64,000 nucleotides of DNA from Micractinium sp. NFX-FRZ. Lineage: Eukaryota; Chlorophyta; Trebouxiophyceae; Chlorellales; Chlorellaceae. Location of the stretch: contig JAPTJF010000149.1 of NCBI GenBank assembly GCA_029339195.1, forward strand, positions 62,001 to 126,000, written 5' to 3'. Position numbers and translations under genes: made by a program. Under the pieces are notes generated by a model, which made no database searches, was not told where the DNA came from, and saw nothing but the letters and a program-made list of their open reading frames with translations. Below are positions 4,612-57,806 of this stretch, in pieces. The first letter of the stretch is position 1; every line of letters begins with the position of its first letter.

Positions 4612-7600
4612 TCACTCAAGCCAGGGCTGCAGGCGCAGCACATCATCAATCCCATCTGCATCTGCTGCTGCCGCCGGTGCCACTGTATCCAGCTTCCCCA
4701 TGGGCGCCACGGCGGTGTGCTGCACAGCGCGCGCCAGCATGGCGGCGGCAGCTGCTGAGCCTGCTGCCGAGGGCGGCCTGCTGGCGTGCAGGCCATGCAG
4801 GCCGCTGAGCAAATCCTCTGCTGCCTCTGACGATTCACAGCTGCTGGCATCGCTGGGGGAGAAGCTTCCCCCCATGAACCCGGCCGCCGCTGCTGCTGCT
4901 GCTGCCGCTGCTGTTGCACCAGCTGAGGGCAGCGCTGCAGAGAGCAGCGACGGCTGCATGGCCAGCGGGTGATGCTGGTGGGCCAGCGGGGCAGCTGCCG
5001 CAGCGGCGGGCTGCGTGCCGCCTGCGAGTGGCGCCATGCTGGGGGCTGTGTAGGCTGGGGCGGTGGGTAGGCGCTGGCGGGTGGCCGGGCTGCCGAATGC
5101 GCTGGCTGCTGCGCTGCCTCCAGGCATGCTCCAGTCCACTCCCAGGCCTGCAAGGAGGGTTGCGGATGGTGGGATTAGGAGGAGTGGACGGGGGTACCGC
5201 AAGGGCAGAAGGACAATGAGGCAGAGCGTTGACAGGGGAAAAAGAGGGATATGGGCGTCACGATAAGGAAGACGCAAAACCTGAAGCAGCGCAGCAAACG
5301 CACACACGACTCTTACCTTGGAAGGTGGGCAGGTTGAGCCCAAAGAGGGGCACAAAGCCGGAGTGGGAGGGCGAGGTCGACAGCTGGGCAGACGGCTGCG
5401 TGGGCAGCTGCGGCAGAGGCTGCCCCATGTGCACCGCAGCGCCCAGGCCGGGTGGTAACAGCACGCTGCTAGCGGCGGCAGGGGCGGCGGCGGCAGTGTG
5501 GCTGCTCATAAGTGACGGCACTGCCTGGTGCATGCCGGACGTATCCGAGGCGCCAGGCTGGAGCTGCTGCAGGGGGCCCAACGCTGGGTGGCCGCGTTTG
5601 TTGGTGCCGTTGCTGCCACTGTGCAGCTGCGGCAGCGGTGCCACGCCCGGCTGCGCTGCAGCGGGCTGTTGCTGCTGCGGCGGCGGCGACGCCGCCGGTG
5701 GCGGGGCGGCGGCAGGAGCCGACCACAGCGGTGCCTGGCCCAGCACAGCAGCGGGCGCCAACAGGTGCTTCTGCGTCAGCTGAGAGCCAGGCCCCGCGGC
5801 CACCGTGCTGCCGAGGTGTGCGGGGCGCATGATGGTGTGTGTGGGCTGCGCAGCATGCACAGCAGACACGATGCCTGCAGCGGCGGCTGGCTGGGCTGCC
5901 CGTGCCGCCGCCACGCCGGCCCACGGAGCAGGCCGCGTGACAGGCTTGCCCCCTGCTGCCGCCGCTGCTGCTGCCGCTGCCACGGCAGCTGTCTGCCGAG
6001 CCGCCGCCTGCGCAAATGCGGCGGCGGAGGCAGCGGCGGCATGAGGGCCGGCAGCAGCCTTGCCAGCTCCCGAGTGAGCCTTCTGGGGCGTGCCTTTAGC
6101 AGAGGTGCCTGGGTGGGTGCGCGGAGGGGTGAGGGCGGCGGGTGCAGCAGCAGGGCGCGCCCCGGCACTGGGAGGGCTCCCCGCCGACCTGCCTGTCATT
6201 GCCTGCTTTGCGGCTGCGGCCGCGGCTGCGCCCTTCTCGTTGCCGGCCTGCTGCACGGCCGCCGCCGCCTCCCCTTGCTGCTGCTTATGCCGCAACGGCG
6301 CGGGAGCAGCAGCAGGCGGGGCACGATCTGGCTCCCCAGCGCTGCCAGCGCTGCCAGCGGAGGTTGTAAGCAGCTGCTGCCGCTGCTGCTCCTCCTGCTC
6401 TTGCTGCTGCAGCACCTCCTCCGCCTGCCGCCTCTCAGCCTCCTCCTCCTGCCGCTGCCGCATCTCGCGGGTGCGCTGCTCCTGCTGTGCCGCCACCTGG
6501 CGCGCCTCCTCCTCCCGCTGCCGCTGCTCCGCCGCCGCCTGCTCCGCCTGCTGCTGCCGCTTGACCGCCTTCTGCTGCTTCTTGGCGGCCTTCTTGGCCT
6601 TCTGCCGCTCCGCACGCTCCTGCAGGGCATAACGGGAGGGGCATCAGACGACAGGCAGGTGGTCAGAAAGGCGGGTCTGCCAGACTGCATCCGCTGCCTT
6701 TTTGCGGCCTTCTTCGCTTTCAGCCGCTTCGCACGCTCCTGCCAGGGGGGACACAGCAGGAGGGCACAGCGGAATGCAGGTGGGTCACGCAAGGCCAAGG
6801 CCAAGACCAAGCCCAGGCGTCCCCTTTGCAGCCTCAGCGTCATGAGGAGCGAGGAACCAACACATGTCATTCGTCTTTCATCCACCACACCCACCTTGTC
6901 AGCCTCCTCTTCTTCAAGTAGTTCAGCCATCACAGCATCCGCCGCAGCCGCAGCCTGCTTCAGGTCGCGCTCACCACCCTGCCCGCCAGCGCTGGCGCCG
7001 CTGCCCCCGCGGGCGCCGGCGCCGGCACCCGCCGCAGCAGGGCCCCCGGCCGCAGCCTCCCGGGCCAGCCGCCGCTGCCGCTCCTTTTCGGCGATGCGCA
7101 GCCGCCCCTCCACATAGCTGGGCCTGCGGTGGGAGGTGGGGGGAGGGGCCAGGTCGGCATCAGGATGAGAACATGCAGAGAGGGCTGCGAAGGCGGCGCA
7201 GGTGGGCCAACCGTGGGAGTGAGCCAGCTGGCAACCAGCGGGCTCGCTTTCAGCCGGACGTTTCAGTGTGCCGCCTACCTAAACGGCCCGCCAGCCGTTT
7301 ACCGGCAAAGCACATCAATCAACACGGACAGCCCCGCTCCCACTGGTACTCTGTACGCGTGTCAAATTAGCATGGCTGTTTGTGTGCAGGCTCAGCTCAC
7401 TTGAAGGTGGACTTCTTGGAGAGCAGCTTGACGACGTCGGCGTCCCCCTTGAGGCGCCAGGGCGACCCGTGCTGCACCAGCTTGAGCACCACCTCAAAGT
7501 AGCCGCTGTTGGCGGCAGACTGCGGGGCACGGGGGTGGGCAGGGGTTGGAGAGTATAAAGGGACTGGGTTGATTGGTTGTTAGCAGCACTAGCTTCCGAA

Positions 7601-10600
7601 GCACTGTTGGCGGCAACTACTGCATGAATGCATGCATGTGCTGGAAGAGGGTGGGTCATGTTGCAGCCAAAAGGCGAGGCAGTGCCCGGTGGGCATGTGA
7701 GGTGGGAGGGTCCACCCAGCTAGTTAGCCACCCCCTGCAGCCAGCCATTCCCAAGCTGACAAACTGGGCGTGAGCCAGATCGACTTGCCTGGATGGCTAG
7801 CCAGCCCTTGGAGTTTTTGATGTGAGGGTCCGCCCCGGCAGCCGCCAGCGCTTCGGCCGGCTGCAGCCAGCCCTTGCCGGCGGCCAGGTGCAGCGGCGTG
7901 TTGCCGTTGCTGTTCTGGACGTCACAGTCGGCGCGCGCACGCAGGAGGGCCTCCACAACAGCCGCATGGCCGCCTGCGTGGTGCGGGAAGGGGCCAGGGA
8001 GGGGGTGGGGGTGAGGGCAGGCATGGCGGGGTGCAAGGAAGCGCAGCACGACAAGCACACACAGAGTGAGGGTGGAAGGCAGTCCGTGACACACACTGGC
8101 TTCACAAATTCACAAGCTGAAGCCAGGCCTGCCGGCGCCGGGCATGCATGCAGCTTGCAGACGGCATGCGTGTGCTTCTCCGCCTCCTGTCTTGACACGC
8201 ACGCACACCAAGCCCACCTGAGGCCGCGTTGTGCAGCGCCGACGACCCGTTCTGGCTCTGAAGGTCGACGTCGCAGTGGGCGACCACGAGTCGCTCCACC
8301 ACCGCAGCATGGCCGTTGAGCGCGGCTGCAGGGGGCGCCAGGCAGGCAGGCAGATTGGGAGGGCAGGCAGGTGGGTGAGGGCGGGAGCGGGTGGGTGAGC
8401 TGCGCTGACCCGGCGGCAGAACAGACAGGAGCACTTGCATCATCAGGAGCACTGGCGTCACGACGGCGCAGCCTGCTGGCGCACAGAAACATGCACACCC
8501 CTGGCGCGCAGCCCTGCACCCCTGCGCACCCTCGCCCCGCCTTCCTCATCCCCGCCTGAACCCAACCCACCCGCATGCAGCGGCGTGCACCCCGACGTCG
8601 TCTCCGCATCCGGGTCCGCCCCTAGCTCCAGCAGCAGCCCAGCCGCATCCGCCAGCCCATTGTTGGCGGCAATGTAGAGCGGAGTGCAGCCGTTGGTGGT
8701 GGTGGCGTCCACTGCAGGTAGTGCAGGGGCGAGTGTGTGGATGGATGGCAGTACAGGTGGCACATCTCGCATGCGGGGCGCGCCCACCTGCCACGCCAGC
8801 AACCCGTGCGTGCGACCCACTTGCCTGCCCTCTCCCCTGCTGTGCCCGCTGCCCTCCTCCTCCCTCCTGGTGGCAGCACAGCATGAACAACAGGCTGAAT
8901 GACAGGTTGAATGACAGGCTGAATGACAGGCTGGTTGATGTGGCTGCCACTCACCGCTGGCCCCCTCCTCCACCAGCTCCCGCATGACCGCCAGGTGGGC
9001 GGGGTGACCCTGGCTGGCGGCGTTGTACAGCGGGGTGGACCCAGCAGAGTTGCGCTGGTCCAGCTGCGGGCGGGGAGGGAGGGAGGGTGGGTGCGCGGGT
9101 GAAGGGGGCGGGGGTGAGGGGAGGAGAGCGGAAGCCCCCCCCCGGCTGCGCACTTGGACCGCCTGCACCATTGGCACGTGGCCCCCAGTGCCTGCCAGCC
9201 CGCCAGCCAGACAACCCCTTGACTCACCAAACACACAAAGCTCAAGTCCCCTGCCCCCGGTCAAAACAAGCTAGCACGTAAAGCACACACACCTGGCTGC
9301 GCCCCTTGAGCAGCTGCACCACCGCCAGGTGCCCCGCCAGCGCCGCCTTGTGCAGTGGTGCATCCCCATCGGCCGCCGGCTCTTCAACCTCGCTGCCCGC
9401 CGCCAGCAGCGCCGCCACAATGTCGGCGTGCCCAGCCGCCGCGGCGTAGTGGATGGGCAGCCAGCCGTCGGCGTCCTTGGCGCTCACCGCCAGCCGGCGG
9501 GCAGCGATGACTTGCCGCACAATCTCCGCCTGGCCCTGCTGGGCTGCCAGGTGCAGCGCGCCGCGCCGCTTGGCCTCGGCTGCGGGCCAGGGAGGATGGG
9601 GTGCGTGGGAGAGGGGGTATGGGTGCCAACAGGAGTGCTGGAAGCAGAAGCTCTGGGGGAGCACAGCACATGGTCACCACTTTCCCTGCCTTTTTGGCAG
9701 AAGCAGGCAAAAATGGGGTTGTGTCCTCTTAGCCGGACAAGCAGGCCCCTAGGCAGCAGGCAGCCATCTGCCCACCTGCCACCTATGCGTACCACCACTG
9801 CCCGCCTGCATGCCCGCCCAGCCCCTTCGCCCACCCACCCGTGCCGTCCATATCTAGCAGCAGAGCTGCGCAGTCCGGGTGCCCATGCTCAGCTGCCAGC
9901 TGCACCGGCGTCTGCCCGTTCTGGTCCTTCAAGTCCAGCAGGGGCGGGCCCGCGGCGGCGGCTGGGGCGCCGGCCGCGGCAGCGCCAGGCGTGGCGGCGG
10001 CAGCGGCAGGGGCTGCGGCGGTGTTTTGTGGCGCCGGCCGCCGGCGCATCTCGGTGACAAGCAGCCGCACACAGGCGGTGTGGCCTGCGGGGGGGCAGCG
10101 GTGTGGGGATGGCATGGGCAGCAGGGAGGAGGTGGGGGAGTGAGAAACACAGCTGTGGCAGGAAGAGCGTGAGCACATGGTGCAGAGGGCAGGAGCACAG
10201 GAGGTGCGGGCAGCTGGCAGCAAGGGGTTCCAACAACACACAACACAGGCTTTCCGGGGAGAGAACACTGCGCCCCTCTTCACCCGCTTCTGACGCAAAG
10301 TGCAGCGGCAAGCGCTGGTTGCAGTCCTTCCTCCATGGGCTGGCGCCCTCCTGCAGCAGCCGCTCTGCCGCCGCGGCTGCAGGCAGGGGCAGGAGATCCC
10401 GGGAGGCAGGCAACAGAGGGCAGTTAAATGCATGATGAGGCAGGCTCCAGCCTGGCCGCCAAACAGAAAGCCGCACAAGAGGTAGCAGCAAGATAAACCA
10501 CCCAGCTACTGCCCACATCTGCTGTGCTCACACAGAAGACCAGCGGGCAGCAGACGCATTCCGCCCCCTCAGCCACCCTCCATTCCGCTCAGCTGCCCAG

Positions 10601-13600
10601 CCACCTCCACTGCCCCTGCAGACCATGTCTCACCATGCCCATTGTTGCAGGCCCAGAACAGCGGCGTCCACCCAATGCTGTCTGGGACATCCACCGCGCT
10701 GCCGCCGCCGCTGCTGCCAGCCAGCTCGATGAACCGACTCAGCATGTCCAGCGCACCCGCTCCTGCAAAATTAAATCATGCAAGAACCAGGCCAAGCACA
10801 GGCGAATGGATGAGTGCCTACCACAAGGTGCAGGAGCTGCGGGGATGGTGACGGAAAGCCGGAGAGGGGGCCAGAGGCAGGTCGGGGCGCAGGCGGCGGC
10901 CTGACGGCGCTGGCAGTGCTGGCTGCCGCCTGGCCCAGTCAGCTGCGTGCGCTCAGGCAGCTCCCGCAGCTGAGCTCCTCTCCTCCCTGCCTCCACCATT
11001 CAGCTGCTCCCCAACAACCGCCGGTCCCTGGTGCCCGCTTCTTTCTTTCAGCACAGCTCTCACCTGCCGCAAAGTGGAGGGGTGTGCAGCCGTGTGCATC
11101 CTGCGCATCCACCCGGCACCCAGAGGCCAGCAGCACCTCCGCCACTGCCCGGTGGTCGGCGCCGCGCCGCGCCGCCAGCGCTGCCTGCCCGCAGCCAATG
11201 GGCGTGTGGTGGAGGGGGGACTTGCGCTCACTGTCCAGCTCTGCACAGCGTGGCACAGCACAGCAGAGCGTGGCAAAGTAAGTGCAGCAGAGGCTTGCGC
11301 TCGCCATGCAGTCCTGCAGCGGTCGGTGCAGGCAGGCGGGGCCGAGCATGGGCAGGCAGGCAAGCGTTGTGTGAGGGGGACGCAGCTGGCAGCACGATGC
11401 CATGCACGCCTAGGCGGAGCGCGCCCGGCGGGCTGGCAGTACACCGCACCATGCTCCGCTCTTGTTTGGAATCCATACCCTACCTGTCATGTCGAATCCG
11501 GAGCCATACAGGTATTGCAGCACCTCCAGGCATCCCTCCCGCGCCGCCGCGTGCACCGGCGTCTGCCCCGCCTCCCGGCACTTCTGCGGAAAGGTGATAT
11601 GACACGGGCAGCAGGGCAGATGCTGATGAGCATGGCTGGTCGGGTCTAAGCATGTGCATCGGCCTCCAAAGACAACAGCTTGTGGTGCAACTGAGCCCAG
11701 GCCCTTTGAGGCCCTCGGCAGTAACCGTGCCGTGCCCCACCCAGCTCGTTCCCTTGGGGAATGCACAAGCAACCCACCCACGCAACCTGCGGCGTGCTGG
11801 CGCCCGTCAGCAGCACGATGCCAGCCATCTCGCTGCTGCCGCCGCGGATGGCGGCGGTGAGCAGCGCGGCGCCGGCGCCCGCGTGGGCCGCCAGGGTGGG
11901 GGCCGACGGCGAGAAGAGGAGGACAAACAGGGCGAGGTCGCCCCGCAGGGCGATGTAGTGCAGCGGCAGGCAGCCGTGGGCATCCAGGGCTGTGGTGGGA
12001 GGTGGGCACGGGAGGAGAGGTTAGGCAGGCAGGCAGGCAGGCAGGCAGGGGTTTCTGGCTGGGCCGGGCGTGGCATCGTCATCGGCGGTGCTGGGGCGCA
12101 CTGCAGGCAGCGATGGCGTGTGGCAGCATGCCTGGCGCTTCTGGCAGGGGAGCATTTCAACTCAATTGCAGGTCAACACACACCTGTGACGGAGCAGCCT
12201 GCTGCCAGCAGCGTCTGCACGGCGCCCACGTGCCCCGCCTTGGCTGCCAGGTGCAGCGGCGTCATGCCATCCGCCGCCGCCGCCTCGCGCGCAGCGCCGG
12301 CGGCCAGCAAGCGGCGCAGCACGCGCGTGCTCCCAGTCATGGCTGCCCAGTGGAGCGCAGTCAGCCCCTGGCTGTCAGCAGCATCCAAACGGCTGGCAGG
12401 CGCTGCTGCTGCGGCAGGAGGCACGCCCGTGCCTTGGGCTGCCTTCGCATCCCCCTGCTGCGCATGCTCAGCAGCAGCAGTCGCCGTTCCCGCCTCCGCA
12501 GCAGCGCTGGCACTGGCACCGGCACTGCCAGTTTGGCAGTCCACAGCAGGTCCAGCATGGCTCAAGTGTGCCGCGATCAACAGCTCGGCAGCAGCTGCCT
12601 GCCGGTGGATTGCTGCGCTGTGCAGCGGCGTGCGCCCCAGCCCGCGCCCGTCGGTGCGCCCCAGGGCGGCGCCACCGGCGGCTGCCAGCAGTGCGGCTAG
12701 TACCTCCTCGTCGCCCCGGCTGGCCGCCTCGTGCAGCAGGTCCTCCTGCAGTAGTGCAAGTCAAGAATGAGTTAATTGATGTTGAACAAGGATTCTATGT
12801 ATGAGCAGCGGTTGCGGACCAACGAGTGGACCAACGAGCGCGAAGGCGGGCTGGCAAAAGAAGTGAGCTGGCGAAAAGATAAGGGAAGGGGCGGGGCTAC
12901 AGCATGCACCGTGACAATTTGGGGGCTGCCTGTCTTGATGGCACCGCCTGCCCATGACGCAGCAGTGCTTACAAACAGCCGCACCCTCACCTGGTCTAAC
13001 GCCGCCGCCACGCTGCACCGGCTGCCCTGCCCATTCCGCTCGTCCAGCAACCAGCACACAAGGGGTGCGGCGCCGGCGTGCACCGCCGCCGCCAGCACCG
13101 CGCTGCCGGTGCGGCCGCGCAGTTCCAACCCCCGCCCTGCCAGCGCCTGCAGCACCTCCAGTCGCCCGGCTGCAGCGACAGGAAGCCAGGGTGGCAGCCA
13201 GTCAGTCAGCATTGGGGTGCACTGGAGAAGCTCACAAACACATTGCACACGCCACAGGGCAGGAGGGAGGGACGTGCAGCGCATGCTCCAAACCCCTACT
13301 GACGCTCACCCCTTGCGGCGCATTCGGCAAATGAGAGGCGAAAGGAGTCCGCCACCAGCTCTGTGCCGTCTTTGACCCCAGCAAAAGCTGGGTGCTGCAG
13401 CGGCGCCGGCACTGCCAGGCACTGCAGCAGGCCCATCTGCGGGGCGGCCGGGTCGTCGCCCGCCGGCTGCGCTGGGCACTCCTCGTAGCCTGCAGGCAGC
13501 AGGCAGGCGGCACGCGCCGGCCCAGCTTGAGCACAACATGGGGAATGGAGCCCGACACACAAGCACACACGCCTGTGCACGCAGACAATGGCACCCACAA

Positions 13601-18986: not shown

Positions 18987-24056
<5,070 letters not shown>

Positions 24057-28619: not shown

Positions 28620-34775
<6,156 letters not shown>

Positions 34776-38300: not shown

Positions 38301-41300
38301 CCCCGCCCCCCGCTGTCAACCGCTGCTCAACAATAACAAGCAAGCAACCCAGTAACAATCATCAACGCAGTCTGTTGGGACCACTGCCCTGGGGTGCAGA
38401 GTTTGATGAGGCGGGCAAGTATGCGCTGGCGATTGACGACGCGCACCGCGCTGCATCCGCTGCCGCCATGGAGCTGCTACGGCGGCGAGAGAACCTGGCG
38501 GGAGGGCTGGGCGCGCTCAAGCGCTACTTCCTCACAGCGCAGGTGCGGGGGCTGTGGCAGAGGGCCGCAAAGGGATGGCAAGCCGCCGCTGCCTTGTCGT
38601 TGCCCGTGGCGCTCGCACCGTGCTCTGCATTTCCCAGACTGTTCGCCGCTTCACCTCTGAAACGCTGACAGCGCCCCGCCCTCTCGCCCTCATATCACGT
38701 GGCAGTCCTGTGCAGGCGTGCATGCTGCTGCACCAAGTGGATGCGGCGGCGCCCACAGTTTCGCATGCTTTCTTCCAACTGCTGCGCCCTGCCCTCCCCT
38801 CACCTGCCGCAGGGCGACATGCTGCTACACACTGAGGGAAGCAGCGGGGCCACAACAATGTGCACTGTTTACACACACTGTTTGCACACACTTCACAGTT
38901 GATTCCAACCTGCCGCCCTCCCCTCACCTGCCGCACAGGGCGACATGCTGCTGCACCTCATGGACGCCGCGGAGCCCGAATTTGCGCAGCATGTGGGCGC
39001 CGTGCCGCTGCTGCAGCTGCAGTCGCTCTTGGAGTCGTCCGTGCGCGGCTCCTCCGCTGCTGCCGACCCAGAGGCCGCCCAGCTGGCGGTGGCCTTTGAC
39101 CACCGCAGCATCCTCAGCATGCTCATCGCCAACCAGCATGCGCTGACGGCGGTGCCGGGCGCAGAGGGGGCCAACAAGACGCCCTTCTCAAAGGTGAGGC
39201 AAGGGGCACAACAGGGTGGGAAGGGAGAGGATGCAGCAGGGACATGGGGCAGGGCAGGGAGCGACAAGGGGGCTGCAGCAAATGGTGCCTCTCCAACGTG
39301 GGCGGGCTGCACGGGTAGGGGACCTATTGCTAGGACGTCGGGGTCAAAGATGCTTGCCGGAGCAGCAGGCAGTGTGTGCGGTGCTGCGCAGCAGGCACAT
39401 GCTCCGGTGAAGGTTGTGTTATAAGGATGGCGCGTGCAGCACCTCACCAACTGTAAACCCTGCCGATGCCCTGGCCCAAGCCGCCCACCGCCTGCCTCCG
39501 CCCTCTCCCCCGATGCGCAGCTGAAGCCCACCACCCCGGCGCCTATGACTGCCAGCGAGCGCAATGCCTTTGGCAAGAAGCGCACCGCTCGCGAGTCCTT
39601 CATGCTCTCCTACGAGGTGCGGGCTGGGCCCACAGCAGCTGGGGCAGGCAGCAGGCATGGTGGGGTGGCGGCGAGTGTCGTGGCAGAGTAGGGGTGTGAT
39701 GCAGCTGCTTTCACTTGGTGGCTGCACAGCGGACAGCACCCCCTAGTCTAGATTTTGCAGGCGATGCTTCTTTTCCTGATGGCTGCCTGGTTGCCCGTCG
39801 CTGCTGGTGTGCCCTGATGTCTGGCGCTACACAGCTTGCTGCTCAGCAGGCCGCAGCCACCTCATGCCACCGCTCCCTTGCCCCTTACCCCGCTCATCCA
39901 AAACTCAACTACTACCGCTCTCTGCCCTCCCCTCGCGCCAGGTCCCCTGGCCGCTGAGCATCGCCGCCCCCGAGGCGGCGCTTGCCCAGTACCAGATGGT
40001 GTTCCGACACATCTTTGAGCTCAAGTGGGTGGAGCGGGAGCTCACCCGCATGTCCAGCCTGTACAGCCAGACCACGGGGCTGGCGAGCCGGCGAGCGCGC
40101 ATGCGCGCGCGCCGCGACAGCACGGGCAGCGACGGCAGTGGCGGCGGCGCCAGCGCGCACGACGCGCTGTCGGAGAGCCTGTCGCTCTCCTACTCCGCCT
40201 GCCAGCTGATGACCCACTTCTTCCGGCAGTACCTGCTGTACGTCACCTTTGAGGTGATGGAGCCGCTGTGGGCAGCCTTTGAGGCGCAGCTGCAGACGGC
40301 GGGAAGCCTGGATGAGGTGAGGGGGGAAGGGTGGTTGTGGGCGGGTGGGGCAGTGGACGTCATTTGTTAGACGCAGCTGCGGACAGCAGGCAGCCTGGGC
40401 ACGGAGCTGGGGCGGGGGTGCGTGGTGGTGGTGGTGATGGTGGGCATCAGTAGGTTGTCGGCGGCACCCATGCACATTGTTGTGAGGGTGAAGTATGAAG
40501 GTTCATCTGCTGCTGGGCGCCGCTGCGCCCCGTCTGTTCATGGCATGGCAGCGCATCAACTTAGCCTGCACCCGCCTGCTGCGCCATCCCTCCTGCTGCC
40601 CCACTTGCGCTCACCGGCTCGCTTTCACCTTGCCCATGCACGCCCCACGCTCGCCTGCCCACTGCCCGCAGATTGTGGAGCAGCACAAGGCCTTCCTGCG
40701 CCGCCTCATGAAGGGGTGCCTGCTGTCCCGCAAGGTGCGGCAGGGTGGTGGCACCTCAAGCGGCCATGCTGCTGCTGCCGCTCCGTTGCCTGCTGTGACC
40801 TATTCTCCTTCCTTCCCGCACACTTGCCTGCCCGCGCGCTGGAACCGGTTGCACTGAGCAGCCTGCTGGGGCCTGACGGGAGCTGGCGCTGCCTTGCACC
40901 CCCGCCTTGCACCAACCACCCTTTCCACCAACACCAACCACAACAGCAGCGTCCAACCTGCTTGGCCTCTGCAGGTGGTGGTGCTGCGCTCGCTGCTGGG
41001 GCTCAAGGACCGACCTGGCGCTGCACCGCCCCCTCTGCCTTGCACCACCCACCAGTACCGCTTGCATGCCGCCCCCTCCCAAATCAAACTGCCACCATCG
41101 CAGGTGGTGGTGCTGCGTGCGCTGCTGGGGCTCAAGGATCTGGCCCTGCGGTTTGTGCGGCTCAGCGACGAGCACGCTGCGCTCAAGTGGGAGCAGCTGG
41201 AGGAGGAGGTGGAGCAGAAGTGCCTCAGCCAGGGTGAGGGCAGCCGCTGGGTGCAAGGCCCTTTGGGGTGAAGCAGGACTGTGCAGCATGCACTAGTGGA

Positions 41301-42340
41301 AGTGTGCAGGGGTGTGGGGGTAGGGTGACGGGGTGGGAGCAGCTGGAGGAGCAGCAGAAGTGCCTGAACCTTTGATCCCGCTGACCATCTCGCAGGCCGC
41401 AAGCCGGATGGGCGGCGCGAGGAGCGGCTGCTCAAGGCCACCCTGGCACGCAGCGCGCTGGAGCGGCAGCTGTCTCAGTCCCAGTTTGCCAGCAGCGTCA
41501 AGTGAGGAGGGCCAAGGCGGTGGGCAGGGCGGGGGGGGGTCTGCTGCACCGGCGTAGTTGCCGCTGGGACGGTTGCAGCGCCGCACCCGCCTGTTGCCCT
41601 GGAGTGCTGCATCACCATGCGTGCTTAGCGCCGTCAATTGCCCCGCCCCTGTGTGCCCGGCCCATGCACCGTCCCCTGCCCCCCCCGCGCCACGCTGCTG
41701 CAGGGACCTGCGCCTGCGCTTCATCGGCAAGGTGCAGGAGTTTGTGGCGGCGCTGGCGGACGCGCACCGCACCGCGCACAGCGAGCGGTCAGACACGCGG
41801 GAGGAGCTGGAGAGCCTGCTGGCGCTCATGTCGCGCCTCGACTTCAACGGGTGGGGTGCTGGGGATCGTGTGCAAGTGCTGAGTTGGCAGGGGAGGTGGA
41901 TGCGAGGTGGCGCTCATGTCACGCCTCGACTCCAATGGGTGGATGGGTGGGTGCAGCGTGTTGCTGCAGGGTGGGAGGGAGGAGGTGGCCTCGGTGGTGT
42001 GAACTAGTGGGTGGGCTCGTGCCCATGCGTGGTGAATCGGCCCACCCTGGGTGTCTGGCAGTATCAGTATGCTGGCTTTATGGTTTGTGTGGGGCAGGAG
42101 CGGGCTCTTTTTCCCCCCGCTGTTCATCTCCTTGACGCAATGCCGTGCCCTGCCCCTGCGGCCCTCTCTCCACGCACCCTCCCTCCCGCGCCCTTTAGGC
42201 TCCTCTCCTCCCCTGTCTAAGCTCCCCGCGCCCCGCCCTGCCCCTGCAGCTACTTCTCCACTCACGCGCCGCAGCAGGCTGCACAGAAGGAGCCCCTGGC
42301 GGCTGCCGGCAGCGAGCGCATGACCGTGCGCTTCGGCTAG
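35337..42340 (+). CDS. GCP2: Gamma-tubulin complex component 2 (Spc97/GCP2 family, ~1,002 aa)
   Basis: Scaffold of the gamma-tubulin small complex, which nucleates microtubules. Exons: 35337-36000, 36284-36446, 36666-36768, 36989-37085, 37297-37535, 37788-38124, 38400-38542, 38939-39193, 39521-39616, 39942-40316, 40672-40734, 41104-41233, 41396-41501, 41704-41850, 42250-42340; total 3,009 nt. Disordered Gln-rich N-terminus. GRIP1 region: DDLLYAFLGLSGTYV, FVETRRAYEWGLVCQAL, WELMVAQLEHQLRSGKLTLQALWYY, AEPYFAMLERWLCEGEVDDPYGEFMV, FWHDRYTLR, VPVFLQRQKRLILNTGKYLNVMREC (GCP2 signature). GRIP2 region: YALAIDDAHRAAS, LKRYFLTAQGDMLLHLMD, VPWPLSIAAPEAALAQYQMVFRHIFELKWVEREL, MTHFFRQYLLYVTFEVMEP, IVEQHKAFLRRLMKGCLL. 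Exons 8, 10, 12 and 14 have decayed copies of their edges in flanking introns. Confidence 0.93.
38776..38836 (+). repeat. Exon-edge echo of GCP2 exon 8
   Basis: Copy of the polypyrimidine tract, acceptor and GGCGACATGCTGCTRCAC exon start, 126 bases upstream of the real junction at 38939. A stop codon (TGA) follows in the copied frame. Confidence 0.85.
40370..40406 (+). repeat. Exon-edge echo of GCP2 exon 10
   Basis: Decayed copy of CGCAGCTGCAGACGGCGGGA (exon 10 3' end), 90 bases into the following intron. The donor GT is lost. Confidence 0.65.
40905..41013 (+). repeat. Exon-edge echo of GCP2 exon 12 (5' side)
   Basis: Tandem copy, offset 129 bases, carrying the intron end, acceptor and 36 exon bases (33 of 36 identical). 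It would read VVVLRSLLGLKD, against VVVLRALLGLKD. No usable donor follows. Confidence 0.9.
41331..41372 (+). repeat. Exon-edge echo of GCP2 exon 12 (3' side)
   Basis: Copy of the exon-12 end (GGGAGCAGCTGGAGGAG...CAGAAGTGCCT) with a 6-base deletion, ~139 bases past the real donor at 41233. Confidence 0.8.
41907..41942 (+). repeat. Exon-edge echo of GCP2 exon 14
   Basis: Copy of the exon-14 end with its donor: 31 of 34 bases match, at an 88-base offset. It would read ALMSRLDSNG, against ALMSRLDFNG. Confidence 0.9.
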
Positions 42341-42860: not shown

Positions 42861-42865
42861 TTACA
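42861..42865 (-). terminator. Putative poly(A) signal of CHLD
   Basis: TGTAA on the minus strand ~420 bases after the CHLD stop codon. Confidence 0.5.
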
Positions 42866-43283
42866 GTGCATGAGATGTTGTTGCTAGGAGTTTAGAGCGC
42901 AGCGCGTGCGGCCCCCTCCGGGTGGTGGGTGGGCGCACGCAGGAGCAGGACAGGAGTAGCAGCAGTGGCGGCAGAGCGCCAGAGGAGCCGCTGACACATG
43001 GACAAGTCAGGCGGATGCGTGCACAGGAGGCGTGGGCACCGCTCCTTCAGGAGTTAAAGCAGGCTGGGGCCAAAATGCAGGCCACCCCGCGCGCTCCTCA
43101 GCTCCAGGCCTCTGGCGGCAGTGGCAGCCAGTGCTGGCAAACAATTTGATTGGGGTATTGGGTGGATGAAAGGGGGATGAAAATGGGCGTTGGGAGGGGG
43201 GCAAAACACGAAGTCGAGCAAGGGAGTTGCTAGTGCTGGGGGGCGGGCGCCACGCGGGCAGCGCACGCCCTGCTGGCGCCAGC

Positions 43284-46200: not shown

Positions 46201-49200
46201 TCCTCGTCCTGCGGCAGGCGGGGGGGTGCGGGAGGGCACACGGGGTGGAGGGTGAGGGAGGAGGGTACAGGGAGGGGAGGGGAGGCAGGGCAGACACGCT
46301 GGGCGGCAGGCTGGGGTGGTGTGAAGCAGCTGGCCCAGCCACGGGGATCCTAGCCACCTAGCCTCTGCCTACGGTAATGGTGGCCACGACACGCAGCAAC
46401 GCACCCTGCCCTGCCCTGCCCTTTCTGCCCGCAGGCCTACCACCAAGCCCCCACCTGCTCCTCCTCGTTCTCCTGCTCCTCCTCCTCCTCCTCCTGATCC
46501 TGCTGGTCCTGCGGCGGCGGAGGCGGCGGCGGCGGCGGGGGCTGCTCCTGCACAGGCGGAAGGGGGCAGCAGCACAGGAGAGGACTCAGCGCCGTGTGCG
46601 GTATGCTGGCAGGCCAGGCATGGGGTTGCTCAACGATTACTGATGCTCTTTGGCACCCTTTCCTGGCAGCAGCCCAAACACGGCTGCACACAGGCAAGCC
46701 GTACACACAACCGCACCAACCACGGCACTCCCCTCCCAGCCACTGAGGGCCCCATATGCAGTGCCGTCTTGTCTGCACTGTGCCCCTCGGTTTCGCCTCT
46801 GCTTGCATCCCACGCCTTCTCTATCACAACTCGGCCCCAACCCCCGCTGCTGCACTTACGTCCTCCGGCGGCGGCATGTCTGTGAGGGTGGAGCGCGGCA
46901 GGATCACCAGCTGCACCGCCTTCTGGAGATCATCAGGCTCGACCTGCAGGCGGGCGGCAGCATGGAGCGGGCGGGCAGGGCAGACAGTCAGTCGGGGGCA
47001 GCGCACAGGGCCTGGCAAGGGCAGGCAGGACAAGAGTCCTCAGGCTGAACCTGCGGTGACCAACCCAGGCACGTGGGCTCGGCAATCCACCTCTTGCTGC
47101 GTGCCGCGTGGGCATCTGCCTCGGTCGCGCAGGGTTGAGGCAGCCTTCCGCCGTGGCCGAACAGCTGCTTGTGCCCGGTCACGCCAACCGCTGTCCTCCA
47201 CAACCCTGCCCTAAACTGCCCGCCCCCCGCCCAGCCCAGCCCAGCGCCCCACCTTGTCCCGCCCCTCCAGCGCCGCCGCCGCCTTGGCCACGCGCACCGC
47301 AAACAGCTCGGCGCGGTGCCCCTGCACGCCGCCCCGCCGCGCCTCCTCCACCAAGTACTTGACCTGCCGCTCCCCAATGTTCACCTCCTGCAGGTACTCC
47401 CGCGCAAACACAATCTGCGGGGCGGGGCAGCGGCGGCAAACGGGGGCACAGGGTTGAGGTTGTGTTGGGTGGGTTGAGCTATTCAACCCTACATCCATCC
47501 GCCAATGGGCATGCGGCCCGTCGACGGTGTCCTCCACATGTCAAGGGCAGCGCACACGCCCCTCCACACACGCTTTCTGTCACCTAGCCCCTGTGCCTCC
47601 TCCCCCGACCCCACCTGCGTGCACAGCCCGTCGGTGGTCTCCTCCGACTCGGACAGCATCTGGGTGGGCTCATCCTGGAAGCGCGCCGCACTCTCCACCG
47701 CGTTCACCCGCTCCTGGAAAGTCCACTGCACGTCCGCAGACAGCGTCATGGCGATGCGGTCCAGCAGGTGCTCACGCAGCGGCCCCTCCTCGGGGTTGTA
47801 TGTCGCAATCAGCAGCGGCTTGCAGCTGCACAGGGGGGTATACGGGAGGGAGCAGGGGCAGCGGGAAGCACAGCGAGCAGCGTGAGGGTGGCGTGTGGCT
47901 GCGTTGCGGCATGCCGTGGTAGAGCGCAGCGGGCGCGGGTGCTGCCACGTCAGCACCACCGCCACTCACGGGTGGGAGATGGAGATGCCCTCGCGCTCCA
48001 CCACGTTGACACCGTCAGACAGGATGGACAGCAGCAGGTTGGCGATGCCGTCGTCTGCGGGAGCACAACCAGGCAGGGAGGTGAGCATGTGCGCAGAATG
48101 GCTCGAGTAGGGGAACTCGGCTGCCCCCTCGCTCCGCCTGCTGCCGCCTGGCGAGGGCGCCAGGCCATGCGTTGACATGTTGGACGACACACACCCAGCC
48201 GCCCCCATCGCCAGCGCTCATTCTAATGCAAGGTGTCCCCGGCACCTGCCCCACCCACCAGCACCCCCTCCACACACCACAACCCCACCCGACATCCCAC
48301 TCACACAGCAGGTTAAGCTCGTGCACACGCATGAATGCCTGCAGGCCCCGCCACCCACCTTCCCACTCACGCTCCTTCTTACCCAGTGTGCACACCAACA
48401 CACACCCACAACACATGCAATCCCACTCACCCAGCAGGTTGAGCTCGTCGACGTACAGGATGCCACGGTGCGCCTCCGCCAGCAGGCCGGGCTGGAACAC
48501 GGGCTTGCCCTCCTGCGGCGGCACGGCACAACACGAGCATGGCAGGTGCGCAAGTGTTGGCAGAACGCTTCGACCCACACACCTTCACTTCGCCCCACCT
48601 CTTCTCTTTCTCAGCCATTTGCACGGCCTCCGCATCCCGCCCCCGCCCCGCCACTGCGCCGGGAGCTGCATAACTTCCCCGCACCTTCATGGACGCCTCA
48701 ATGTCGACGGTGCCCACCAGGCGGTCCTCGGTGACACCCAGCGGGATCTGCACAAACGGCGCGTCCTTGATGCGCGTCTTGATCTCCTGGCCAGCCAGGC
48801 GCTCGGCCAGGCCGTCCTGCAACAGCGCACATGGGGGGAGGATGTAAGCCATCAGTTACAGAACAAAACGTGCGCGCTTTGATCCCCCTTTCAGGCAGGC
48901 CGCCCTGCTTGCCTGGGAAAGATGCAAGCAGGGGAGGCAGGGGCTTGGACACAGACCAGGGCAGATCAGGTGAAAGTAGGCCATGCACATCCCCCGGTGA
49001 CATTGCCGCAACACCTTGCCCGCCTCGCTCGCACACTGAGCAAAGCGTGTTGGCCCCTGTGCCGGCCGGAGCGCAGCACCCAGACCCCAATTCAAAAGGA
49101 TCCAGCGCTTGCCCCCCTCTACCAGCTGTCGCCACTCAAGGCACCTCCCACCCGCCCAGCACCCACCTCCCACTGCTGGGGGTCCTCTGGGTCAGCATTG

Positions 49201-51340: not shown

Positions 51341-54300
51341 ATGCAGGCCTCTTGTGGGGTCAGCCTGGCGCCTTGCGCCCGCCTGGCGCCCTCCTGGAGC
51401 CGGGCGCAGCGTCGAGCAGGCCAGATGGGCGGCGGCGCGGCCAGCAGCCAGCGCGTCGGCAGGTGCGGCAGCCGGCGCCGCCACCCGCCGCCGGCGGTGC
51501 GCGCGTCGGCAGCCGCCGACTTTGCTGACCTGCGGGCCGCCGCTGCTGAGGCCGTGGCGAATGCACAGGCCAAGCTGCCCAAGCTGGAGCAGGCCAAGCG
51601 TGCGGCAGAGCAGCACCGCGAGCCGGCGGCGGAGGCGGAGCGGCACTGGCAGGAGCTGCACGGTCAGCTAACTTCACTCCAGAAGGAGACAGCGTCAGCA
51701 ATGAAGTCGCTGCGGGAGGGGGTGGTGAATGCCGCAGGCGGCGAGGCGGTGGCCACGCATGCCATGCTGCAGCGCCACGTGGCGGAGCGCGTCGCCTACT
51801 TCCGGGCAAACCACGGGCTGGCGGACGCGCAAGTGTGGAAGGTGGGTGCGGGCGACCTGGGCGGGCATTGGGGGGGACCGTACTGCAAGGGGGCCTGCTG
51901 GCAGGAATAGGTAGTGCGTGCAAGATACTGGGGTCCGGTCCGGGGCTTGTCCGCGTTTGATTCATCGCTGCTGCCCCTCCGCTGCTAACGTGCCCATTCA
52001 GCCCGGCGCCTACTGCTCTGCCGTGACGCCGCTTTGCCTGCCGCCTGCTCGTCGCCCCCAGCCTGCAGTACCAACACATAGCAGTACCATCACATAGAGC
52101 CCGCCGCTGTTCAGAAACCCACCGCTCGCCCCTGTCCCCGCCCCCTTGCCACCGCCTCATCACGCAGGAGTTTGCGCCGCTCGACCTGCCGCTGCACTCC
52201 ATCCCTGGCGGCAAGATGGTGTACCACCTGGCAGCCGCTGAGCTGGACGGCGAGCGCTACGCTGTGGTCGCGCTGGGCATCTCCAACCCCTTCCTCTTTG
52301 ACAACCTGCGCTCTCTTATCATGCACTGGGGCGTGACCGAGGGGCAGCACGCCGGGTGGGCGCAGCCGCCCAAGGGCTGGCACTCCTCGCCGGGCGTCAG
52401 CACGGTGAGGCGCCCAGCGGGCGCCAGCAGGGCCGGGGCAGGGACTTGGCGTTTTGTAGTTCGAGGGAGAGGGCTGGGGGAAGTATCTGGGGACACGTCT
52501 GGGTGTCAGTACTTGTGGGCGTGACTTCTAAGGAAATGTTACGGCTGCGGAGGAACCTGCACTGGCCGCGCCTGCTTGGCGGGCCATGCGGGCCTCGCCC
52601 CCGCTCCCTTCTCTGCTCCCCCTTGTGACTCGTCCCACATTCTGCTTCCTGACCCCTGCAGCCCGCGGGGGAGCGCGCGTGGGAGACGGTGTTTGGCGCC
52701 TACGCCCCCGTGCTGCGTGGCGAGTCGGTGCTGGATGCCGCCGTCTACTCTGTGGTGCTGCAGGTCCCACTGGAGGGTGAGCAAGCGGGGCCAAGCCATT
52801 GTGTATGCATGTGTGACAGGGGGTCGTTTGTGTGGCTGTGTGAGTGTGCGCGTGCAGGTCCCGCTGTAGGGTGAGTGGAGCCCCGTGCCATCCTGGTATT
52901 TGAGATGTGCCGCCGCGGGGCGCGAGTCTGTTCTGTGCAATCTGTATCCGACTGGTTGGTCTGCTTACCACCCTGCACCCCACTGGAACGTGCATTGTTG
53001 GGCGGGTGGGCGCCCGGTGTGGATGTGGCTGGTCCCTGGCGTGCCTGCCTCCCTCTTCAAGCGTGCTTGCTGGCAGGGCCTGTCCTGGCGGAAGCGTCCA
53101 GTCAGACCTCCCACACTGCCTCCGCGTGCCTGCCTGCCTGCCTGCCCGTCATCCCATGCAGGCATGCTGGAGCTGCATGGCGGCGTGAAGTGCGTGCTGC
53201 GACGCACAGACCACGGCCAGCCAGAGTGGATCAAGGGCGGGTGAGTGGGGTCGATGAGGGGTGGGGCAGGGAGGGGGGGAGGCGCCTGGGGAGGGGAGCA
53301 GGGCACAGGAGGTGTCGGGCACATCCCCGCCGGCCCGCTTCAGCGACGCTGCTGCCACTGTGCCATCTGGCTCCTGCTGTGCGTGTTCCTCGAAATGGCC
53401 TTTGCTCCTCTTCCCATGCACGCAGACACCACAACAACGCCGACTTCTTCCTGGACTTTGGCCCCGCCATCGACCTGTTTGAGCGCAAGCGGCGCAAAGC
53501 CCAGGTAAGGGTTCCCTCACAGGGCAAGAGGCAGGGGGGCGCCTTGCCCAACCCTGGCTGCCTGTGCAGCAGCAGGCGGCTGCGGCATTCAGGCCCAGCC
53601 CAGCCCAGGAAGAGGCGCGCCTGGGAAGACTGGCTGCGTGCCGCTAGCCCATCTGACTTGCACTAGGCATGCCTGAGCTGTGCGTCACTGGTGCAGATCA
53701 GTTACCCGGCTCTGCTGCCCTGTTCCCCTGGCCCGACCCGGCCTTGCCACCCCACCCTCCTCCCCCCCTGCCCGTGCTCGATTGCAGGCCGCCGCCATCG
53801 CGGCAGCCCGCGAGCTGGCGCGCGCAGCAGCCCTGGAGAAGGCGGCGGCCGCGCTGGCGGTGGCCAAGGGCGGGCGGGGCGCTGCCAAGGGGGCAGCAGC
53901 CGTGCCTTTGGATGTCAAGGAGTGGGCAGCCCTGCTGGATTCTGATGAGTGGGGGGAGACTGATCTGGAGGAGCTGCTCAAGGTGAGGGGGCGGCTTGCA
54001 CCTACTGCCACAAGCTGCCCGCTGTCGTGTGGGGAGGGGCGGGGTGACTTTGTGGCTGGGTGTGCCGCCTTGCTGGGCTCGGATGAGTAGGGGGAGGCTG
54101 CAGCTCAAGGTGAGGTGGCGGCTGAGAGGCTGTTTTGAAAGGTCCTCATGCACCATCTCCACATGCTTCCCTGCTGCCATGTGGGTTGGTGGGGTGGGGC
54201 CGATCTTCCTACCGTCAAGGGGGAGCCTGCTCTCGAAGCGGCTTTGAGTGTTGGTTTCCGGGGTTGCCTGCTGGATGGGCCGCCCTGCCGCTGATTGATT

Positions 54301-57300
54301 TCCCTGGTGCCTCCGTGGCCCCCGGTTGCCGTGCAGGAGCCTTCCTCGGCAGTAATCGAGGAGGAGGAGGAGGAGGAGGCAGAGGAGGAGCTGTCTGGCC
54401 CGGAGCCGCCCCGGTGAGTGCAACCACACGACACCGCCTTGGGAGCGTGCTGCCCAGCATGCCACCCCCTGCAGCTCTGGGCTGCCCAGCTCTCCACCCC
54501 GCGCACATTGCAGGCTGGGCCACCCCATCTTCTGTTTCGCTCGGGCGCTGCGCCATGCTGTGGCTGCTGATGCCCTGACCTGCCGTGGCCCTGACGTTCC
54601 TGCTATCCCCTGCTGTGCCTGCTGCCCCCCTCTCCCCCACCCTGCAGCTGGGTGGGCCAGGTGCAGCAGTTTGTGCAGCTGTCCGACCTGCCCACCGAGC
54701 GCAGCGCCAGCGAGCACGCCAAGTGCCTGCACGCCATCGCCTCTGCCGTGGCCGAGGCGCGGCACGACGGCGCCAGCGAGGCGCGCGACCTGCTCAACCG
54801 CTGCCTGGAAGTGGAGCGCCTGCTGCAGCAGACCGACCTGCTGGAGCTCAACACGCGGGCGGCGCAGCAGGAGAAGGAGCAGCTGCAGGTGGGCGGGGCG
54901 GGGCAAGGTGCGTGGGGTGTGGGGTGAAAGGAATGTACAGACCCCGCTGGAAGTGGACACGCGGGCGGGCCAGCAGGAGAAGGAGCAGGTGGGCCTGGGG
55001 TGTGGGGGGTGGGGTGTGAGGTGTGGGATGGCAGGATGTGCGGGGTGTGTGTCAGGGAGGCTGGGGGATGTGTGCAGGAGGTGTGTGGGAGGTGACAAGG
55101 TGTTGGGTGTGAAAGAAAGGGGCGGACGTGCCGGAGCTCACCACACGGGCCGCCTCTGCCTTCCCCGACCCTCCTTGAACCTACCCCTCGCTGTTTGCAC
55201 CCGCCCCGCCCCCCTGCCCCACAGGCCATGTACAAGCAAGCGATGGATGAGTCTGCCCGCTTGACGCACGAGCTCACCCATGCCGCCGACACCGCGCGCC
55301 GCACAGCCGTCAAGCTGCGCGGCCGCGAGACGGGTGCGTGCCCACTCTGTTGGCGCCATTCATCCCACATCCAGTGGGCGTGCGAGCGGCGGCGCATGAA
55401 TGCACAGCCCTGGTGTTTTCGTTTGTCATGCACCACACACGTCAGCCTGCCGCGCCGCTGAACCTGCACTTAGGCTCTCCCTCCCCCTTGGTTGCACTGC
55501 TCCTGCTGCCTCCCCGCCCGATTGCGCCCCGCTCCCAGCCCTCCTCCCCCCACCCCTACAACACATGCATTTCTTGCGATTCCCCCTTCCCCTGTGCGCC
55601 CGCTCCCTGCCCTCCTTCCCCCGCCCCTACACCAACACATCCATGCCTTTTCCCGTCCCCTGTGCCGCGCCGCGCTGTGCCCGCCTGCAGAGGTGACTCA
55701 GCGTGACCTGGAGGCGGTGGCCCAGCAGGCCGCCCAGGAGCTTCTTAAGAAGAGCGGCGGCGGCGGCTTCTGGCCCTTCAAGGAGGAGGAGCGCCAGCTG
55801 GTGCGTGGCCGTGCAGGGCACAGGGGGGGACTGTTTCAACCCACCCTTCTTGGTTTCAGCGGGGACGGCTGTTGAGGCGTGTGGGTGGGGTGGGCGGCTG
55901 CTGGCCCTTCAGGGAGGAGGAGCGCCAGCTGGTGGGTGGGGTGGGCCACCAAAGGCCCGGCCGGTGTTACTGCTACTCTTCAACTGCACAGATGGTGTGA
56001 GCCGCCCGTCGTTGCCCCGCTCGTGATCGCCCGGCCTTGCTCTGCCCATGCTGGCATCTGCGACTGCAACCTGCATCCTGCCGCCGCCCGTAGCCCTACC
56101 TTCACTCCCGTATACTGCCGGTGTGTGAAGCAGAAGGCCGGTGATGGTTGGTGTTGGGGCTGGCGGTCAAACTGTTGTGCATTCCCCCCATCCCCCTAAA
56201 CACGTTTCTTTGCCTGACCCCTCCCTCCTCTGCAGGTGTTTGTGCAGCAGAAGGTGATGGAGGTGGCGGGGCTGGAGGCCAAGGTTGTTGTGCAAGTGTT
56301 TGTGGAGGGCACCAAGGCGGCAGTGGAGGCCGCCACCGCACCGCCCCTGCCCCCGGACACCGACTCGGAATCCGAGGAGGAGGATTCAGAGGCGGAGGGG
56401 GAGGCGGAGCCTGCAGCGGCCAAGGACAATGCGGCTGCTGCTGGGGAGGAGGGCGCGGCTGGCAACGGCGCGGCGCCGGCTGCGGCGGGCAAGAAGGCAA
56501 AGGCGAAGAAGGCCAAGAAGGAGAAGAAGGAGAAGAAGAAGGCGCCCGGGTTTGAGCACGTGGTGCTGGGCATCGCTGTGGGGGAGTCCTTCCCTGACGA
56601 CCGCCTCAAGTGAGCCTGCCCGCTGCTGTCTTTCTGGCTTTCCTCCCACCTCCGTTCCTTTCGTTGCGTCTGTGCGGGCGAGGGATTCGGGATGTGTTGC
56701 TGGGCATTGTGTGGGTGAAGCCTCCCCCAACGAATGTCTCAAGCAAGCGATGCTTCTATGTCCCTCTTTGTCCTGCATTATCCATGTGCACATGTCGGCT
56801 TTGTGGCAGGCAGGTATTACTGGCAGAGACCCTCTTTCTTTGGATGACAAGGTTGAAGTGCGACTGCCTTCATGTCTCACCGTACTGGGCGTGCTGGTCT
56901 GTCGGTGCTAGGCAGTACTTACCGGCAGCCCACCATGCGCACGTGCCCTCCCCCTTCCCCTGCCCCCTCTGCAGGACGCCCCTCATCATGCACATGGGGT
57001 GCGTGGCCCACCAGTACGCCAAGTGGCGCTCCCCGCCCGAGAAGTGGAGCTGCTCGCCGCCAGCGGTGTCAGAGGAGGGTGAGCGGGGCTGCTGGGCATT
57101 TGCATGGCGGGCGGCTGGGCGGGCAAGTGCAAACACGTCTCCAACGGTGGGTAAACTGCGCTGTGCGTGCCGTCCTGCCCTACCCGCCCCGGCCGGCCCA
57201 CCATTTGCCCTTGCATCCCCTGCAGTGCCCAGATCCCCCACCCCCCAACCCCGCCCCACCTCCCAACCTTGCTCTCTTTGGCCCCTGCTTGCTGCCCTCC

Positions 57301-57806
57301 TCCCTTCCCATTTCCCCTCCTGCAGGCGCATCCGCCTCCCAGGTGCCCTTCCAGCGGTACCGCATCGCCGCCGAGGGGGGCGCCTCTGTGTTTGTAGACC
57401 CCACCCTGTTTGCGCTGGCCCTCCGCTTCCCCCTCAAGGACTGCCTGAGCGAGAGCGTCAGGTGGGCCAGCCAGCGTGTGTGTGCGCGGCAAACGGTGTG
57501 TGTGTGGAGAAGCCTTTGGTCGGGCGGCGTGGCATGCTGGGAAGCCTGGCAGGCCTCTGCCGTTGCTGCTGCTGCTGCCCGTGCTGCCGCGCAGGACGCT
57601 ATCACGACGCTGCGCCTGCTTTGGTCCCTGGAGGTATGTTGGATGCCCCCGCGCACCAACCGATCCCCCCTCCCACCCCTCCCACCCCGCTCTGCAGGGG
57701 CATCGAGTTTGTGCTGAAGACGGGAGACGGGCAGTGGCTGAGCTGGCAGCACGGCCACAGCCAGGTGTCCAACTTCTATGCAGAGCTGCCGGTGCCCATG
57801 CGCTGA
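51341..57806 (+). CDS. Plastid-targeted protein with two CBM45-like starch-binding modules, no dikinase (~821 aa)
   Basis: Exons: 51341-51841, 52168-52404, 52662-52776, 53162-53240, 53426-53504, 53788-53982, 54337-54413, 54648-54888, 55225-55333, 55691-55800, 56236-56609, 56975-57078, 57326-57461, 57698-57806; total 2,466 nt. Residues 1-60 look like a chloroplast transit peptide ending near AVRASAAAD; 60-150 is a coiled coil. Module 1 (~170-335): LIMHWGVTEGQHAGWAQPP, ETVFGAY, YSVVLQVPLEG, VKCVLRR...EWIKGG, NADFFLDFG. The middle (~340-580) is Ala/Glu-rich coiled coil. Module 2 (~582-821): PLIMHMGCVAHQYAKWRSPP, VPFQRY, LRFPLKD, GIEFVLKTGDGQWLSW, NFYAELPVP. This HWG...W..PP...FVL..G..W....NDF pattern is the CBM45 signature of alpha-glucan water dikinases, but the gene ends without phosphohistidine or ATP-grasp domains. 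Module 2 has a long acidic/Lys-rich loop. CBM45 assignment is by pattern only; glucan binding is inference. Confidence 0.68.
52853..52880 (+). repeat. Exon-edge echo of CBM45-gene exon 3
   Basis: GCAGGTCCCGCTGTAGG then GTGAGT copies the exon-3 end GCAGGTCCCACTGGAGG then GTGAGC at a 94-base offset. The copy has gained a stop (TAG). Confidence 0.8.
54063..54130 (+). repeat. Exon-edge echo of CBM45-gene exon 6
   Basis: Decayed copy of the exon-6 end and donor (CTGCTGGATTCTGATGAGTG...CTCAAG, GTGAGG), offset 127 bases. GAGTGG has become GAGTAG (stop). Confidence 0.8.
54938..55155 (+). repeat. Two exon-edge echoes of CBM45-gene exon 8
   Basis: The first copy (54938-54997) repeats ACACGCGGGCGG...CAGCAGGAGAAGGAGCAG plus GTGGGC, offset 100 bases with a 6-base loss. 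A third, weaker copy of the GAGCTCAACACGCGGGC part lies at 55124-55155 with no donor. Confidence 0.75.
55893..55945 (+). repeat. Exon-edge echo of CBM45-gene exon 10
   Basis: 34 of 36 bases of the exon-10 end (WPFKEEERQL; echo WPFREEERQL) plus donor GTGGGT, offset 131 bases. The copy is intact enough to act as an alternative donor. Confidence 0.9.
56117..56180 (+). repeat. Exon-edge echo of CBM45-gene exon 11 (5' side)
   Basis: Copy of the exon-11 start (GTGTTTGTGCAGCAGAAGGT... to GTTGTTGTGC) at a 115-base offset upstream. The acceptor AG is mutated to CG. Confidence 0.7.
56685..56745 (+). repeat. Exon-edge echo of CBM45-gene exon 11 (3' side)
   Basis: Copy of the exon-11 end (GGTTTGAGCACGTGGTGCTG ... 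CTCAA) at a 133-base offset. The donor GT has become GC. Confidence 0.75.

Follow-up and report, generated by a model that had tools for sequence, protein, structure and literature searches.

How does an intron come to hold a second, decayed copy of the edge of its neighbouring exon, splice site included? The question is raised by a 64,000-nucleotide stretch of the green alga Micractinium sp. NFX-FRZ (contig JAPTJF010000149.1, positions 62,001 to 126,000; G000:C149:62001-126000 in our numbering), referred to here as the window, which is part of a 66-Mb genome in 838 contigs. A preliminary description of the window had reported such copies, which we call echoes, and had proposed a process making short duplications at exon-intron junctions. 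We found that the echoes are real and that they extend beyond the window across the sampled genome. They are best explained, with a probability that we put at roughly 0.6, by short tandem duplications that spanned junctions, after which the echo decayed.

Exon edges recur in their own introns

Besides the window, the survey covered 25 further pieces of this genome, each of ten kilobases, for a total of 314 kb. A simple gene finder trained on these 314 kb yielded 67 predicted genes with 579 introns, and the splice consensus in the predicted introns was AG/GTG at donors and TGCAG/ at acceptors (the slash marks the splice point). All gene models are predictions; for two donors of the window, 54888 and 55800, they were compared visually with homologous proteins. 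Each exon edge, taken to a length of at most 150 bases, was aligned with its own intron at a main threshold score of 34, using introns of 70-1,500 bases, the set from which mean lengths were also taken. The offset is the distance of an echo from its exon-edge original.

At this threshold, an echo was found in the own intron of 59 of the 1,054 exon edges. Introns of the same gene at least two places away gave no match (0/1,023 edges), dinucleotide-shuffled introns gave one, and reversed introns also gave one. Random intron stretches or the intron's own reverse complement produced 5 matches in 2,108 comparisons, and low scores are reached by controls as well (26/2,108 at score 30). An earlier scoring with a threshold of 32 detected echoes at 54 of 1,058 edges versus none in its controls, with equal frequency on the donor (27/527) and acceptor (27/531) sides. 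Junction-spanning similarity in the sample stands above both shuffled and non-adjacent controls.

The echoes lie on the same strand as their originals and within a narrow range of offsets, 70-165 bases for 43 of the 49 edges with a score of 38 or higher. When the 314 kb were compared with themselves (E<=1e-4), direct copies peaked at a spacing of 80-150 bases, and a single inverted copy was found within 1,000 bases. Direct events joining exon and intron (E<=1e-3) numbered 0, 3, 20, 22, 4 and 1 at offsets of 20-50, 50-80, 80-110, 110-140, 140-170 and 170-200 bases, and inverted events numbered 0, 0, 0, 1, 0 and 0 in the same bins. At 80-140 bases, where the histogram peaks, 42 direct events thus stand against 1 inverted event, the orientation and the shared locus being those of local tandem duplication. 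Identity over the aligned exon columns ranged from 73 to 100% (49 events, score at least 38), which, with the one orientation and the narrow offsets, agrees with the earlier proposal of many events at varied stages of decay. Copies were also found at 206-223 bases, about twice the usual spacing, which suggests that they are third units.

Probable tandem duplication across the junction

Under the favoured explanation, many independent local tandem duplications, mostly of 80-140 bases, would each have copied a unit straddling an exon-intron junction, and the unit would be contiguous in every case. The outer splice site, in its original position, would stay in use, as the gene models and the two junctions compared by eye suggest. 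With the outer site in use, a second exon edge and its splice site would be stranded in the intron, which would gain about one unit, and the stranded echo would be free to decay. By analogy with other organisms, the copies may be products of the repair of paired nicks or of breaks with staggered ends. Intron lengths support the lengthening that had been proposed: the mean length is 334 bases where an echo is present (221 after subtraction of the offset), compared with 267 for all introns of the set.

A contiguous unit should leave similarity on the intron side of the junction as well, and such similarity is present in a subset of events. At the tandem position it rose above the level of the remaining windows of that intron (mean z 0.79, standard error 0.21; 9/39 above 2), and compared with introns of other genes it exceeded 2 in 16 of 49 events. 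In 16 matches with at least 35 intron-intron and at least 12 exon-intron columns, the two kinds of column were 70% and 81% identical overall, close to the 2:1 divergence that is expected if the exon is fixed.

Several observations weigh against this explanation. The match covers a median of about 0.40 of the offset, with 37-38 of 44 events under 0.6 and 6 of 44 reaching at least 0.75, although matches are longer under loose scoring. Intron-side z is flat over exon identity (0.82 at identities of at least 0.90, 0.74 below 0.85), unlike what a common age would give, and some echoes of 90-96% identity, such as that of donor 55800, show no similarity past the splice site. When the stretch separating the two copies was examined in 20 high-identity events, its best match fell close to the tandem position in 4, all of which stayed within the best of 60 shuffles. 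Echoes also cluster by gene (chi-square 143 on 60 degrees of freedom; 0/5,000 shuffles as high), which a uniform process does not predict. Plain neutral duplication with equal decay and a constant rate fails in simulation, giving a median coverage of 0.99 and about 42 intron-only events (40-46 in another run) versus the observed 0.40 and 9. The fit is still poor when young copies are dropped and nothing else is changed (0.87 coverage, 33.6 intron-only events) or when indels are made four times more frequent (0.66 and 25.9).

Agreement was reached by a simulation without young copies (d>=0.10) and with threefold faster decay of the intron flanks, in which the median match covered 0.43 of the unit, 0.77 of matches were under 0.6, 7.2 events were intron-only and the spread of identities fitted. 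The threefold difference is a fitted and not a measured parameter, and this too counts against the explanation; faster flank decay is plausible because the flanking intron sequence is less complex (dust score 0.92-0.99 versus 0.62-0.63). The simulations assume that a unit needs about 35 bases of intron, a value taken from the lengths of the exon part, which spans 24-91 bases with a mean of 49 (32 events with exons of at least 110 bases and offsets of 70-165). Given these lengths, a unit centred on the junction was set aside.

The short matches might instead reflect copying of the exon edge alone, in which an intronic break would be mended by a templated insert of 30-60 bases from the nearby exon edge. 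What is copied would then fall short of the offset in length, and the intervening intron would never have been duplicated. We consider this a possible but distinctly less probable account. The low coverage, the several echoes of 90-96% identity without intron-side similarity and the small number of intron-only events all speak for it. However, homology on the intron side does exist on average and is extensive in the 16 matches described above, arrays of several units exist, and inverted copies, which templated inserts should produce, are nearly absent. Nor did a simulated version, as parameterised here, fit match length any better (median 0.56, with 0.56 of matches under 0.6).

Distribution along and among genes

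Part of the original proposal was that duplication is directed to junctions. The single orientation and narrow offsets in it were upheld; the targeting was not, since copies at 80-140 bases also occur wholly within introns (9 events) and, under a loose criterion, between exons (6). Intron-intron similarity at lags of 80-140 is flat with distance from the junction. Under the fitted model, the excess at junctions would be explained by visibility: junctions would stand out mainly because selection holds the exon copy constant, so that an old duplication stays readable.

Some tandem repeats in the sample lie outside introns or are larger than the echoes. A predicted exon (L005:2957-3285) holds a tandem repeat with a unit of 117 bases, a multiple of three, that is 86% identical over 212 bases, and among wholly exonic matches the offset is divisible by three in 3 of 4 (117, 87 and 129). 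A tandem array of 1.2 kb with a period of about 150 bases is located at L006:5717-7031.

We keep junction targeting open because the signal is lower in intergenic DNA and because of the clustering by gene. Identical 10-mers at lags of 80-140 occur 9-10 times per million comparisons in intergenic sequence (a 61-kb sample) versus 34-44 in introns. One echo-dense gene belongs to a head-to-head pair named flavodiiron-like from its translations (L003, G000:C1:50001-60000, and neighbours), with 9 echoes in 12 introns and 3 in the 16 introns of its partner. In the genes outside the pair in that 30 kb, 34 introns held 3 echoes (offsets 166, 111 and 106, from a further 20 kb), an ordinary level, so a regional hotspot was rejected. 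A bolder reading is that this alga has a process distinct from plain tandem duplication. It would place copies of exon edges, with their splice site, in the adjacent intron at a distance of about 110 bases and mainly in certain genes, and introns would grow from pieces of their own exons. We regard it as unlikely, on a par with exon-edge copying.

Decay of the echoes and their splice sites

Mismatches between echo and exon are spread evenly over the three codon positions (98/109/109), 17 of 27 indels involve a single base, and 2 of 316 changes create a stop. These features argue that no coding constraint maintains the echo and that the exon has changed little since; a coding echo is countered by the even spread of mismatches. 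From the lack of a third-position excess across the 314 kb, intron DNA also seems to change far faster than the synonymous sites of these exons.

The splice sites of the echoes are mostly degraded. GT is retained in 8 of 22 donor echoes and AG in 13 of 22 acceptor echoes, in line with the losses described earlier. The retention expected from aligned dinucleotides is 0.69 and 0.75, respectively (two-sided p 0.002 and 0.14), the aligned part being biased upward. Mean splice scores fall from 8.7 at real donors to -3.8 in their echoes and from 11.1 to 0.09 at acceptors, and this weakens the suggestion that echoes supply splice sites; yet 10 of 44 score at least as high as their real site.

These 10, together with the slower loss of the exon-derived part relative to the intron flanks, are what would favour echoes acting as decoy or alternative splice sites under selection. 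We think this improbable, as mean scores have collapsed, mismatches have no codon-position bias, frameshifts are present and homologous proteins lack the echo at the two junctions inspected; neither the splice signal nor the sequence of the echo is conserved by these measures. More improbable still is a mobile element, an introner for example, whose insertion at the exon edge left a long target duplication: some events do have direct repeats around sequence without visible homology, but one exon-plus-echo stretch and two whole echo introns matched only their own locus genome-wide (the introns also their own exon edge), and no dispersed copies of these three stretches were found by a search that skips very common words.

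Echo loci in the window

Sixteen junctions of the window have an echo, with offsets of 87-140 bases, in five genes: ankyrin, FtsH, GCP2, CHLD and a PF23166/CBM45-like gene (Table 1). Fourteen of them reach score 34 in the exon-edge search; the other two, 48430 and 52776, score just 29.5 and 27 and rest on self-matches. Three places with longer offsets also reach score 34 and are counted outside the 16: 9292 (151), 28766 (161, predicted exon skipped) and 17133 (206). The window has 37 rows at a score of at least 27; beyond the places named, the rest score 27-34 or repeat the same place. The preliminary description had counted at least 17 places in six genes; the present count is 16 (19 with the three longer-offset places), and five genes remain: ADCS has no row at a score of at least 27 among its predicted introns of 70-1,500 bases. 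Its example of a 94% identical echo, at 55762/55893, proved correct.

Pfam supports the assignments of ADCS (chorismate-binding and GATase), FtsH (M41 and AAA) and the GCP gene. The labels ankyrin and CHLD, like flavodiiron, stem from the earlier naming or from a reading of translations and not from a database search. The protein of the PF23166 gene has its nearest named matches in Micractinium, being 72% identical to a protein of Micractinium tetrahymenae and 70% identical to one of M. conductrix; this one protein would point to a chlorellacean green alga.

Two echoes, those of donors 40316 and 54888, overlap predicted exons (40377-40439 and 54941-54988, respectively) and are visible only when the predicted short internal exon is skipped. 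The echo of donor 54888 had itself been called as exon 54941-54988; judged by eye, homologous proteins lack it and continue directly into the next exon, as they also do at donor 55800. Of the two copies at GCP2 acceptor 38938, the more distant one (offset 223) has the score of 45, while the nearer one (offset 124) is known from the self-match. At GCP2 acceptor 41103, a further copy (40863-40920 of 40993-41053, E 2e-6) makes an array of more than two units, and a match of 204 columns occurs there at offset 130. Four introns of the sample had echoes from the exons on either side at a score of at least 34, one of them 55801-56235 of the window; donor echoes occur in 31 introns and acceptor echoes in 28.

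Table 1 Exon-intron junctions of the window with an echo of the exon edge. Positions and offsets in bases; support gives identical columns, exon-edge score and E value of the self-match.
Gene	Junction	Extent	Strand	Original and echo	Offset	Support
Ankyrin	acceptor 6619	6571..6738	-	exon start 6571-6619, echo 6690-6738	119	41/49, score 62; self-match 6571-6672/6690-6795, E 6e-13
FtsH	acceptor 30569	30535..30689	-	exon start 30535-30569, echo 30654-30689	120	29/35, score 37; E 8e-5
FtsH	acceptor 31851	31821..31958	-	exon start 31821-31851, echo 31928-31958	107	26/31, score 39.5; E 2e-6
FtsH	donor 33137	33036..33213	-	exon end 33150-33213, echo 33036-33099	114	50/64, score 65; E 8e-11
GCP2	acceptor 38938	38721..38988	+	38791-38851 copies 38915-38976; second copy 38721-38765	124; 223	E 1e-14, 2e-5
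GCP2	donor 40316	40265..40398	+	exon end 40265-40311, echo 40350-40398; overlaps predicted exon 40377-40439	87	37/47, score 41 (exon skipped); E 0.001
GCP2	acceptor 41103	40863..41149	+	exon start 41104-41149, echo 40975-41024	129	42/46, score 62; E 6e-13
GCP2	donor 41233	41187..41370	+	exon end 41187-41230, echo 41333-41370	140 (far end 146)	35/38, score 46.5; E 2e-6
GCP2	donor 41850	41803..41938	+	exon end 41803-41850, echo 41892-41938	88	39/47, score 52; E 4e-9
CHLD	donor 48430	48271..48448	-	48399-48448, copy 48271-48322, mostly intron	126-128	exon part 16/17, score 29.5; E 4e-8
PF23166/CBM45-like	donor 52776	52759..52875	+	52759-52781, copy 52853-52875, weak	94	16/18, score 27; E 3e-4
PF23166/CBM45-like	donor 53982	53922..54100	+	exon end 53922-53962, echo 54060-54100	138	33/41, score 46 (6-base predicted exon skipped; else 42.5); E 4e-8
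PF23166/CBM45-like	donor 54888	54829..54991	+	exon end 54829-54885, echo 54938-54991	106	47/54, score 62.5 (predicted exon skipped); E 7e-12
PF23166/CBM45-like	donor 55800	55762..55931	+	exon end 55762-55800, echo 55893-55931	131	37/39, score 69; E 1e-15
PF23166/CBM45-like	acceptor 56235 (same intron as donor 55800)	56121..56294	+	exon start 56238-56294, echo 56121-56181	117	47/56, score 47.5
PF23166/CBM45-like	donor 56609	56548..56742	+	exon end 56548-56609, echo 56682-56742	133	45/61, score 44

Significance and comparison with known systems

About one in 18 junction edges in the sample holds a readable record of past duplication. If the sample holds genome-wide, short duplication would be a measurable source of intron growth, and the echoes a natural experiment on the tolerance of splicing to a second copy of a splice site. 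Because the exon is a built-in ancestral reference, a single genome suffices for the study of duplication and decay, and with echo-dense genes one can test for a link to transcription or to the gene itself. These data do not show a process that is directed to junctions and furnishes useful splice sites.

Among the publications listed in our literature searches, which left most subscription papers uncovered, none dealt with genome-wide exon-edge copies in introns of an alga, which does not imply their absence from print. A rice study by Vaughn and Bennetzen from 2014 is reportedly cited in connection with small tandem duplications. Fill-in at staggered breaks yields small tandem duplications (PMC8355091). 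Those duplications are short and direct like the ones described here; the units here are mostly 80-140 bases, and the repair pathway is not read from this genome. Introners (PMC9860276) similarly change intron content en masse within one lineage, but as dispersed families, whereas the three stretches searched here are single-copy. For Chlorella vulgaris a mean intron length of 206 bp is given, for Auxenochlorella 179 and for Chlamydomonas reinhardtii 272 (PMC12633428); the mean of 267 bases here exceeds the first two and not the third, and the comparison is therefore no test.

Intron gain of the AGGT type (PMC3443670) likewise starts from a short tandem duplication with splice sites within the unit. 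There, the unit is exonic and the new intron lies between two AGGT copies. In the alga the copied site lies mid-intron, as the preliminary description had correctly pointed out, and in nearly all listed events the intron exceeds the offset in length. The nearest known case is the potato RdRp gene, in which a tandem duplication over an intron-exon boundary made a new intron (Ma et al. 2016, PMC4974935); boundary-crossing duplication is thus already published, and the same gene also carries an 83-bp duplication within an intron. The potato unit, too, extends over an intron-exon boundary and includes the start of the exon along with the acceptor region. In potato, however, the outcome was a new spliced intron and an extra piece of exon, whereas in Micractinium the copied edge lies dead inside one predicted intron, at many junctions of a single genome.

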